NCBI RefSeq assembly: GCF_900111935.1 | Contig: NZ_FOYN01000003.1 | Coordinates: 124,001 to 188,000 of the forward strand | DNA from: Halorubrum sodomense | GTDB lineage: Archaea; Halobacteriota; Halobacteria; Halobacteriales; Haloferacaceae | DNA: 64,000 bases | Direction: 5' to 3' | Shown: piece by piece, positions 3,667 through 7,073 of the stretch | Layout of the letters: every line of letters starts with the position of its first letter | Position numbering within the stretch: the first letter of the stretch is position 1 | Translations under genes and position numbers: made by a program | The notes under the pieces: model-generated | Databases searched by the model: none | Told to the model about the DNA's origin: nothing | The model's input: the letters and a program-made list of their open reading frames with translations, nothing else

Positions 3667-4888
3667 ATGACAGACATCACGGAGGCTTCGTCGGACACCC
3701 CGGCGGATCGAGTTCTTCCAGGGCACGATAGCTTCTAACGTCGATATCGGTCCTGTCAGGATCTTCGACACGACCCTGCGAGACGGAGAACAGTCACCAC
3801 GCACGTCGTTCAGCTACGATGAGAAACGCCGCATAGCGGCGACGCTGGACGACATGAACACCCACGTCATCGAGGCGGGGTTCCCGGTCAACTCGGACGC
3901 GGAGTTCGAGGCCGTCAGCGACATCGCCGCCGCGACGGACACCACCGTCTGCGGGCTGGCGCGGGTCGTCGAGGGCGACATCGACGCCGCCATCGACTCC
4001 GGCGTCGAGATGGTCCACGTGTTCGTCTCCACCAGCGACGTTCAGCTGGAGGACTCGATGCACGCGACCCGCGAGGAGGCGAAGGGGCGCGCGGTGGACG
4101 CCGTCGAGCAGGTGAAAGACGCCGGCGTCGAGTGTATGTTCTCGCCGATGGACGCCACCCGGACGGACCCGGACTACCTGACCGACATCGTCGAGGCCGT
4201 CTCCGAGGCGGGCACCGACTGGATCAACATCCCCGACACCTGCGGCGTCGGGATGCCGACCAGCTTCGGGCAGACGGTGAAGGCCGTCGTCGAGGCGACC
4301 GACGCCCGCGTCGACGTCCACACCCACGACGACTTCGGTATGGCCGCGGCCAACGCGGTCACCGGCTTCGAGAACGGCGCCGAGCAGGCGCAGGTGTCGG
4401 TCAACGGGATCGGCGAGCGCGCCGGCAACGCCGCGTACGAGGAGGTCGTCATGGCGGTCGAGTCGGTGTACGGCGTCGACACCGGCATCGACACGACTCA
4501 GATCACCAAGCTGGCCCGGATCGTCGAGGAGGCCTCTGACATCCCGGTGCCGGCGAACAAGCCGATCACCGGACGCAACGCGTTCGCCCACGAGTCCGGC
4601 ATCCACGCCGCCGGCGTCATCGAGAACAGCGACACGTTCGAGACCGGCGTGATGACCCCGGAGATGGTGGGGGCCGAACGCGAGTTCGTGCTGGGCAAAC
4701 ACACCGGTACCCACAGCGTGCGCAAGCACCTGGTGGAGGCCGGCTTCGACCCGACGGACAGCGAGGTCCGGACGATCACCAAGCGGGTCAAGGAGTACGG
4801 CGCCGGCAAGCGGCAGGTGACCGCCGGCGACGTCGAGCGGTTCGCCGAGGAGGCGGGCGTCACGCGCGACGAGGAGGTCCGGGTCTGA
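3667..4888 (+). CDS. leuA: 2-isopropylmalate/citramalate synthase, frame broken near N-terminus
   Basis: Condensing enzyme of the HMG-CoA lyase-like family that opens leucine (2-isopropylmalate) or isoleucine (citramalate) synthesis from acetyl-CoA. The long frame ending at 4888 carries the catalytic motif FDTTLRDGEQSP (3764-3799), HTHDDFGMAAANA (4321 on), the NGIGERAGNA loop and HESGIHAAGV. It has no ATG or GTG before 3854, and a start there would lose the DTTLRDGEQ metal-binding motif. The leaderless ATG at 3667 reads MTDITEASSDTPADRV in another frame and hits a stop at 3738. The two frames join naturally near 3709-3715. A 5-base loss in a CGAGTCGAGT-type repeat would explain this. The alternatives are a sequencing error or a rare ATC start at 3707. 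About 405 residues, without the C-terminal LeuA regulatory domain. First gene of the BCAA cluster. leuA versus cimA is not settled. Confidence 0.8.
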
Positions 4889-5261
4889 TGCCCGCCTCCT
4901 CGACCGGAGCGCTCCCCGAGCGACCGCGAGGGCGGTCCTGCGAGGAGCCCGACCGGGGTCTCGTCCCGGACCCCCGACAGGAATTTATACCCCGCCCGCG
5001 TTGCTCCGAGCGAGATGCGACGGCACGCCGCGGCCGCGGGGCGAACGCGCGTTCCCGGAGCCGTCGCGCCGATCATCGTAGGGGTCTGACCCCCTACATC
5101 ATCCCTTCCTCACCGACGCGACGCACCGCTGACCGCCGGCGGACTGACCGTCTCCGACGCACGGAGTCGCGCTCCGCGTCCGAAAAGAGCGATCCCGTCC
5201 GCACCGCGTTCGCAGCGACCGACACCACCCGCCAGATGCCACACCGAACACCACCACGACA
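4889..5261 (+). promoter_or_regulatory. ilvB leader region with promoter, leader peptide and hairpin
   Basis: A 373-base region between leuA/cimA and ilvB. AATTTATAC at 4982-4990 is a good TATA box. About 26 bases after its centre lies an ATG at 5015 that opens a 24-codon reading frame (separate entry). GTAGGGG (5078-5084) can pair with CCCCTAC (5091-5097), a 7-bp stem that overlaps the leader's last codons and stop. No T-run follows, only pyrimidine-rich CCCTTCCTC. The remaining ~160 bases before ilvB hold no clear gene. So ilvB appears to have its own promoter with a long leader, in addition to any readthrough from leuA. Confidence 0.5.
5015..5089 (+). CDS. Putative ilvB leader peptide (24 aa)
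   Basis: ATG at 5015 to TGA at 5087-5089. The peptide is Arg/Ala-rich at first and ends P-I-I-V-G-V-stop. Six of its 24 codons are Ile or Val, four of them in the last five. The ATG sits where a leaderless transcript from the TATA box at 4982-4990 would begin. A 7-bp hairpin overlaps the final Val-Gly-Val-stop codons. This arrangement resembles amino-acid leader peptides of bacterial ilv operons. Function is inferred from position and composition only. Confidence 0.4.
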   Translation: MRRHAAAAGRTRVPGAVAPIIVGV

Positions 5262-7073
5262 ATGAGCGACACAGCAGCACACACACGAGAAGACGAGCCG
5301 GAGGGCTCTACGGAGCCGCCGGCGGGAGCCGACGACGGGACCCCCGACGCCGACGAGACCCCCGCCGCCGGCCCGGTCTCGACCGGCGCCGAGTCGGTCG
5401 TCGCCGCCCTCGAAGCGGCGGGCGCGAAGACCGCCTTCGGGGTTCAGGGCGGCGCGATCATGCCCGTCTACGACGCGTTATACGACTCGTCGATCCGACA
5501 CGTAACGATGGCCCACGAGCAGGGCGCCGCCCACGCCGCCGACGCCTACGGCGTCGTCGCCGGGGAGCCGGGGCTCTGTATGGCCACGTCCGGCCCGGGC
5601 GCGACGAACCTCGTCACCGGTATCGCCGACGCGGACATGGACTCGGACGCGTTGTTGGCGCTGACCGGACAGGTGCCGACGGAGTTCGTCGGCAACGACG
5701 CGTTCCAGGAGACCGACACGGTCGGCGTCACTCGCCCCGTCACGAAGCACAACTACTTCGCCGGCGGCGCGGACACCGTCGGGGACACCGTCGGCGAGGC
5801 GTTCGAGCTGTCGCGCGCGGGACGCCCCGGCCCGACCCTGGTCGACCTTCCGAAGGACGTGACGCAGGACGAGACCGACCGAACGCCCGGTCCGGCGGCG
5901 CCGCCGGCGGGGACCGACCCCGACCCGAACGCCGACCCGGACGCGGTCGAGGAGGCCGCGCGCGCAATCGAGTCGGCCGACCGGCCCGTCTGCCTGTTCG
6001 GCGGGGGCGTGATCAAGGCCGACGCGAGCGACGAGGCGCGGACGTTCGCCCGGAGCTACGGGATCCCGGTGACGACGACGATGCCGGGGATCGGCTCGTT
6101 CCCCGAGGACGACGACCTCTGCCTCTCGTGGGCGGGGATGCACGGCACCGGCTACGCGAACCTGGCGATCACCCACACCGACTGCCTGATCGCGGTCGGT
6201 ACGCGGTTCGACGATCGGCTGACGGGCGGGATAGACACGTTTGCGCCCGAGGCCGAGGTGATCCACGTCGACATCGACCCCGCGGAGATAAGCAAGAACG
6301 TCCACGCCGACTACCCGCTGATCGGCGACGCCGGGCGCGTGTTGGACCAGCTGACCGCCGCGGTCCGCGAGGCGCCAGACGCCGAGGCGTGGCGCGACCG
6401 GTGCGCCGAGTGGAAGGAGACGTACCCGCTCACCTACGCGACCCCCGACGACGAGCCGCTGAAGCCGCAGTTCGTCGTCGAGGCGTTCGACGAGGCGACC
6501 GACGACGACACCATCGTGACGACCGGCGTCGGCCAACACCAGATGTGGGCCTCGCAGTTCTGGTCGTACTCGGAGCCCCGGACGTGGGTCTCCTCGCACG
6601 GGCTCGGCACGATGGGATACGGCGTTCCCGCCGCGGTCGGCGCCCGCGTCGCGGCCGACACGATGGGCGAGGCGGACCGCGACGTGGTGTGTTTCGACGG
6701 CGACGGCTCCTTCCTGATGACGATGCAGGAGCTCTCCGTGGCCGTTCGCGAGGAGCTGGACATCACCATCGCCGTGCTCAACAACGAGTACATCGGGATG
6801 GTGCGCCAGTGGCAGGACGCCTTCTACGAGGGGCGTCACATGGCCTCCGACTACACGTGGATGCCCGAGTTCGACAAGCTCGCGGAGGCGTTCGGCGCGC
6901 TGGGCCTGCGAGTCGACGACTACGACGAGGTCGCGCCCGCCGTCGAGGAGGCGCTCGACTACGAGGGGCCCGCCGTGGTCGACTTCCACGTCGACCCCGA
7001 GGAGAACGTCCTCCCGATGGTGCCGAGCGGCGGCGCGAACGGGAAGTTCGCGGCCGCGGAGGACCAGCTATGA
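5262..7073 (+). CDS. ilvB: Acetolactate synthase, large (catalytic) subunit
   Basis: ThDP-dependent enzyme that joins two pyruvates, or pyruvate and 2-oxobutyrate, in valine/leucine/isoleucine synthesis. 603 residues; the first ~40 are an acidic haloarchaeal tail. The catalytic Glu lies in [15 protein letters not shown]. The pyrophosphate-binding motif begins [13 protein letters not shown] and ends at [18 protein letters not shown]. The central FAD-binding-like domain includes [10 protein letters not shown]. All three thiamine-enzyme domains are present at normal length. The regulatory subunit ilvN starts on the ATGA overlap at the 3' end, so the two are translationally coupled. Confidence 0.96.

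Follow-up and report, generated by a model that had tools for sequence, protein, structure and literature searches.

A conserved leader upstream of ilvB in haloarchaea as a candidate ribosome-mediated attenuator

In bacteria, attenuation by leader peptides is a textbook mechanism and depends on the coupling of transcription to translation. In the enterobacterial ilv, trp and pheST attenuators, a short leader carrying cognate codons adjoins hairpins. The haloarchaeal ilvB leader described here has the short leader, the cognate codons and the adjacent hairpins in common with them, but neither an intrinsic terminator nor an antiterminator pairing was found in it. A published bacterial ilvB uORF, judging from excerpts of its description, is rich in branched-chain codons, lies in structured RNA and has been proposed to act by transcription attenuation, all of which it shares with the haloarchaeal leader. 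The latter differs in being archaeal and predicted leaderless, in lacking a terminator, in its fold and in having no Rfam match.

For archaea, our searches of the open-licence PubMed Central literature gave no description of leader-peptide attenuation among the matches listed. The uORFs with mapped starts in long 5' UTRs of Haloferax volcanii include one of 26 aa before pheS (pI 5.9, 2772 Da) and one of 23 aa before a trpS (pI 5.4, 2743 Da) (PMC4983044); attenuation goes unmentioned in the excerpts of that text. In the same excerpts ilvB is absent from the uORF table, which counts against an attenuator, although the ilvB leaders of other Haloferax (244-250 nt) lie at the edge of the 150-250 nt range that the table covers (PMC4983044).

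Organization of the ilvB leader in Halorubrum sodomense

The window analysed here is a stretch of 64,000 nucleotides of the H. sodomense genome, and all leader features lie on its forward strand, between leuA and ilvB. The presumed target, ilvB (5262..7073, ATG at 5262), encodes the acetolactate synthase large subunit; we take its name from similarity to a named Haloferax ilvB1 context and from general knowledge. Its nearest relative among the named loci fetched is from Halorubrum (97% to H. trapanicum).

The leader transcript has a TATA box, TTTATA (4984..4989), whose first base lies 31 nt upstream of the leader ATG at 5015, with the same spacing in related loci. A TATA box about 30 nt 5' of an ATG is the arrangement of a leaderless transcript, and from this spacing we infer a start at the ATG itself. 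The predicted leaderless leader peptide, uORF1 (MRRHAAAAGRTRVPGAVAPIIVGV, 24 codons, 5015..5089), ends in ATC ATC GTA GGG GTC TGA, with the stop at 5087-5089 and the putative control codons ATC ATC GTA (Ile-Ile-Val) at 5072..5080. Stem I is formed by a 5' arm at 5017..5024 (GCGACGGC) and a 3' arm at 5060..5067 (GCCGTCGC), directly 5' of the control codons, as supported by the pairing test and clade folds given below. Hairpin II (5078..5097) pairs GTAGGGG (5078-5084) with CCCCTAC (5091-5097) over 7 bp and holds the stop codon in its loop. The preliminary description of this DNA had already recognised the 24-codon ORF at ATG 5015 behind a TATA box, its I-I-V-G-V-stop ending and the 7-bp stem over the final codons, and our analysis confirms each of them. 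It had also remarked that no T-run follows the hairpin; indeed, neither a T-run nor any other terminator-like site was found in 4800-5300.

A C-rich, G-poor stretch follows the leader stop (5095..5129) and is the site where we would place the regulatory output; over 106 loci, positions +5 to +40 from the stop are 44.5% C and 14.4% G. Further downstream, a second small ORF (5236..5265) overlaps the ilvB ATG with its TGA (ATGA). Similar ORFs occur in Haloferax and Natrialbaceae, and they are absent in some Halorubrum; its ATG is lost in one locus (L040) and in Halorubrum group C, so we rejected it as a universal part of the arrangement.

Over its full length, the leader RNA shows no excess stability compared with shuffled versions (z +1.15). 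A search of 4500-5600 against Rfam returned no covariance-model match over the gathering score, only two hits on the opposite strand at the level of chance, and a riboswitch of a known Rfam family was therefore discarded. The pattern GTAGGGGN{3,12}CCCC occurs in the window at this site only, once per strand of one palindrome, against 0.17 expected. In the whole genome, the same GTAGGGG-type pattern has 10 matches and its reversed control 25, so rarity cannot be claimed for the short motif by itself; by eye, the eight matches elsewhere in the genome have no comparable leader. Our argument against chance is built on conservation and not on the rarity of the motif.

Conservation, reading frame and RNA folds

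We examined 81 ilvB loci, consisting of that of H. sodomense and 80 found by protein similarity, two of which (L051, L086) start at a contig end. All 79 loci with upstream DNA carry the uORF and GTAGGGG upstream of ilvB. The leader was also found in 27 of 30 further genomes, which came from nine of ten family labels and include all seven genomes without a match in the class-wide pattern count given below; it is present in eight of the nine families sampled. The remaining three (G058, G161 and G066, the last being the one genome of its family, f5) have ilvB without the element, which counts against the attenuator. Class-wide, ATYGTAGGGGN{3,9}CCCC is present in 138 of 145 evenly drawn genomes and 54 of 58 genera, a count in which the distance to ilvB plays no part. 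It mostly occurs once per genome, its reversed control mostly not at all, and the tenth family label (f4) has it too. Four of the seven misses are variants with a leader (L122, L123, L145, L151). The 106-locus set used below contains many close relatives and 105 distinct sequences, L076 being identical to L123 over 120 nt; loci L003-L031 served for a first look only and stand outside the later counts. One genome (G111) has two ilvB copies, one with a leader that has Phe before Val (PVFVGAA, L137), the other close to the usual ATTGTAGGGG element.

As a control for the reading frame, each of the three frames of the 106 loci was scanned for an ATG that is preceded by an A/T-rich hexamer at promoter spacing and whose open frame runs into GTAGGGG. 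Such an ATG exists in 104, 0 and 1 loci, respectively, and in 72, 0 and 1 of the 74 loci outside the Halorubrum clade. With the promoter condition removed, an open ATG is present in 106, 5 and 47 of the 106 loci. Within the conserved frame, the spacing from ATG to GTA takes 22 different codon values. The control thus rules out a chance ORF (104 versus 0 and 1 of 106). In the Halorubrum clade the uORF has 24 codons in 31 of 32 loci and 23 in the other (L053); elsewhere it spans 16-66 codons, still in frame with the hairpin. Because a script selected, among the in-frame ATGs, the one whose upstream hexamer is richest in A/T, the long ORFs are unsure. Outside its end, the leader peptide is not conserved between genera.

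What is kept at that end is the kind of residue. The position before Val is I in 101, V in 3, L in 1 and F in 1 of the 106 loci, encoded by five codons (ATT 70, ATC 31, GTA 3, CTC 1, TTC 1), although the resulting count of [IVLF]VG is partly forced by GTAGGGG itself. I/V/L make up about 0.1 of the residues at positions -12 to -10, then 0.56 at -2 and 0.99 at -1. Moreover, the codons used are rare ones. Among the Val codons of seven window genes, GTA accounts for 4 of 271, yet it is used in 106 of 106 leaders; ATT, with 0 of 88 Ile codons in these genes, is used in 70 of 106. On the other hand, two observations count against an attenuator: GTAGGGG is invariant at the DNA level in all 106 loci, even where GTA is unpaired, and each leader has merely one to a few control codons. 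The preliminary description had suggested comparing related haloarchaea for a small ORF with a hairpin, and both are found there (79 of 79 loci, 27 of 30 further genomes). Of its two marks of a conserved peptide, Ile/Val content was borne out by the residue counts above, and length held within the Halorubrum clade but not elsewhere.

At the closing position of hairpin II, the 57 unique hairpins have C-G in 40, T-A in 6, T-G in 3 and C-A in 1, a covariation with a Fisher p of 3.5e-5 that is uncorrected for kinship. Counted over 105 loci, the base after GGGG and the base before CCCC are C-G in 65, T-A in 22, T-T in 10, T-G in 4, C-T in 2, G-G in 1 and C-A in 1. In stem I, pairing between the ORF's initial 30 nt and the 36 nt preceding GTA is better than in shuffles (mean z -1.24, 106 loci), with 38% of loci at or below 0.05 (41% in another run), and the stem is built from different sequences in different clades. 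Five other leader pairings gave mean z from -0.35 to +0.42 over the 106 loci, hence no class-wide alternative pairing, and a classic alternative-pairing switch was ruled out for the class by this test; in the Halorubrum clade alone, two of the five reach -0.68 and -0.90.

RNAalifold, run on chosen loci of four clades (alignments A3-A6), recovers stem I together with hairpin II in each of them. The seven Haloferax sequences have two-sided changes at five pairs, counted over the whole fold (covariation term -1.24); the nine of Natrialbaceae have seven two-sided changes, all in the inner first stem (+0.01); the six of a third group have four (+0.25); and the 19 of the Halorubrum clade (A6, 19 of its 32 loci) have none (+0.22). 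Given these covariation terms, the support within clades is one of conservation more than of covariation, and their near-zero or positive values in three of the four clades count against the attenuator. Also counting against it, the window sequence folded by itself has the 3' arm of stem I paired with downstream bases. In both placement and pairing, the two hairpins lie where a stalled ribosome would change them.

Cognate leaders at pheS and trpS, and the leuA neighbour

Leaders bearing FF near their end (..GFGFFF..) precede pheS in 20 of 28 loci from 29 genomes, a partly circular count given that FF was searched for; without the FF filter, an F-rich leader is found in 18 of 28. Besides the 20 loci with FF, one more (L175) has an F-rich leader, and in seven of the 28, including that of H. 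sodomense (L173), no leader was found; two fragments (L180, L181) were dropped. In genus g6, which we take for Haloferax from its ilvB hairpin, the Phe-rich leader is present in all five genomes. A stem reaching up to the Phe run has two-sided changes among 17 aligned leaders (A2, which leaves out L157, L162 and L178 of the 20). Two leaders from genomes taken for Haloferax (26 aa, pI 5.94, 2822 and 2850 Da) resemble the H. volcanii pheS uORF in length, mass and pI, going by the excerpted data of PMC4983044. In addition, the pheS loci L153-L178 and L248-L252 show a second covarying stem after the leader, with conserved UGGAC / GAAACC surroundings. A CGGAACCG(C/T)TAAC-like block, perhaps a second promoter, lies about 30-40 nt before pheS, also in loci with no leader.

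For tryptophan, a leader with a WRW cluster is present in eight of nine loci of an auxiliary trpS. The other type of trpS has it in 0 of 21 loci, one of which (L232) has unrelated Trp-containing ORFs. Among the 26 plasmid records with a trpS match, seven were examined: three have a 23-aa WRW leader (L241, L242, L245), another two (L243, L244) have an ORF that begins with GTG and has Trp close to the stop, and in two no leader was found (L246, L247). Pairing of the stem that surrounds the Trp codons is intact in all 13 aligned leaders (A1, the eight trpS loci plus five of the seven plasmid loci), with two-sided changes at four of eight pairs. These loci (L211-L218, L241-L245) are often borne on megaplasmids and have a pyrimidine-rich block 3' of the covarying stem. 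Compared with the H. volcanii uORF before trpS, as excerpted from PMC4983044, the leaders of H. larsenii and H. mediterranei have the same length (23 aa) and similar masses (2728 and 2703 versus 2743 Da), but their pI values do not fit (8.0 and 6.7 versus 5.4). Trp is present in 11 of 11 trpS leaders, 0 of 25 pheS leaders and 1 of 106 ilvB leaders. No leader with a Trp cluster was found before trpC or trpD (0 of 29 loci each, a second trpD match, L282, having been dropped); Trp-containing ORFs without the WRW cluster occur in three loci of that set (L184, L274, L276).

The neighbouring gene leuA has an unusual start. In the window, a short frame (3667-3738) meets the enzyme frame at the overlap CGAGTTCTTC (3709-3718). 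All 77 loci examined have a promoter-spaced ATG whose reading frame, not that of the enzyme, extends to CGA GTT CTT C. From this invariant overlap the enzyme continues in the +1 frame; the CTT within the overlap specifies Leu, in a gene of leucine synthesis. From the preceding stop to the conserved FDTTLRDGEQ, the enzyme frame has no ATG, GTG or TTG in 53 of 77 loci, and no CTG either in 36, including all 31 Halorubrum-clade loci examined. The start problem had been flagged earlier for H. volcanii leuA2 (HVO_1510), with an in-frame CTG or slippage proposed together with leucine dependence, according to the excerpts of PMC8305020; our counts over the 77 loci favour slippage. That excerpted proposal resembles the ilvB case in invoking leucine-dependent translation of a branched-chain gene, but it places a frameshift or unusual start inside the enzyme gene, where ilvB has a leader peptide (PMC8305020).

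A model for the ilvB leader and its alternatives

Judging from sequence, we consider that the ilvB leader is a ribosome-mediated attenuator on a leaderless transcript, with a probability of roughly three in four. It is a short upstream ORF with codons for the pathway product, and the proposal in the preliminary description that it resembles an attenuation leader gains support from its conservation in all 79 loci, from the frame control and from the cognate leaders of pheS and trpS. Because of these cognate leaders before pheS and the auxiliary trpS, attenuation by amino acids is much likelier than it would be from one locus. That a ribosome reading the leader peptide senses Ile/Val is the part in which we would have most trust, and it very probably holds. 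In the model, transcription would start at the leader ATG and a ribosome would load directly at the bare end of the RNA. With charged Ile- or Val-tRNA in short supply, it would wait at AUY-GUA, where it would prevent stem I from closing and mask the 5' arm of hairpin II; ilvB would then be expressed. When the amino acids are plentiful, the ribosome would reach the stop and leave, both stems would form and ilvB expression would drop.

Neither a hairpin followed by a T-run at the ilvB leader nor, over the 106 loci, a mutually exclusive antiterminator pairing of the kind known from classic bacterial attenuators was found. The classic switch is thus missing, which counts against the attenuator. 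If the sensor is as proposed, we lean slightly towards a transcriptional output, most plausibly premature termination in the C-rich stretch 3' of the leader. This might be carried out by FttA/aCPSF1, the archaeal termination nuclease, which we take as a candidate terminator at this site. We place such factor-dependent termination ahead of translational control because the RNA is C-rich and G-poor and because coupling of transcription and translation has been reported for H. volcanii, as excerpts of PMC8576121 indicate.

The strongest competitor keeps the same sensor and differs in the output, with the position of the ribosome on uORF1 controlling access to ilvB or re-initiation on a full-length mRNA; in some species the second small ORF would mediate this. 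The lack of a terminator in 4800-5300 and the overlap of the second ORF with the ilvB ATG in the window and some relatives speak for it. However, this ORF is not universal, being without its ATG in L040 and Halorubrum group C, and no pairing that hides the ilvB start appeared among the segments tested, which did not include the ilvB start itself; we regard translational output as possible, and as the less likely of the two. Alternatively, the IVG(A/V) end of the nascent peptide could itself stall the ribosome when a free metabolite is sensed, which would explain why I-V-G-[A/V] is found close to the end at nearly every locus. That motif is partly forced by GTAGGGG, though, it stands zero to five residues from the stop, and the pheS and trpS leaders carry their own amino acid without sharing it, which makes arrest of this type unlikely.

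A structured RNA or protein-binding hairpin with an incidental ORF would fit the invariance of GTAGGGG in the DNA of 106 loci and the covarying closing pair; it is improbable in view of the frame control (104 versus 0 and 1 of 106), the retention of I/V/L before Val through different codons and the absence of an Rfam family. The site is also a palindrome, as an operator bound by a regulator of branched-chain synthesis might be, but the spacing of its half-sites varies, the left half alone is fixed, it lies within the transcribed part, and frame and codons are kept. An operator-only reading was rejected on the own-genome pattern counts, the lack of leaders at the other matches and the frame control, and a DNA operator now seems very improbable. 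Least probable of all is a small protein acting in trans. The reading frame is kept in nearly all haloarchaea, as such a protein would require, but the peptide is not conserved between genera outside its end, and its script-picked length ranges from 16 to 66 residues.

Returning to the attenuator, a broader proposal is that haloarchaea sense several amino acids by stalling ribosomes on leaderless leaders, namely Ile/Val at ilvB, Phe at pheS and Trp at the auxiliary trpS, without intrinsic terminators, and that a like signal, Leu-codon decoding, governs a programmed +1 frameshift into the leuA enzyme; for this whole, we see the chances as evenly balanced. If true, archaea too would regulate by attenuation, with a class-wide sensor acting on leaderless transcripts for three amino acids, and these leaders would offer ready reporters for archaeal transcription-translation coupling and factor-dependent termination.
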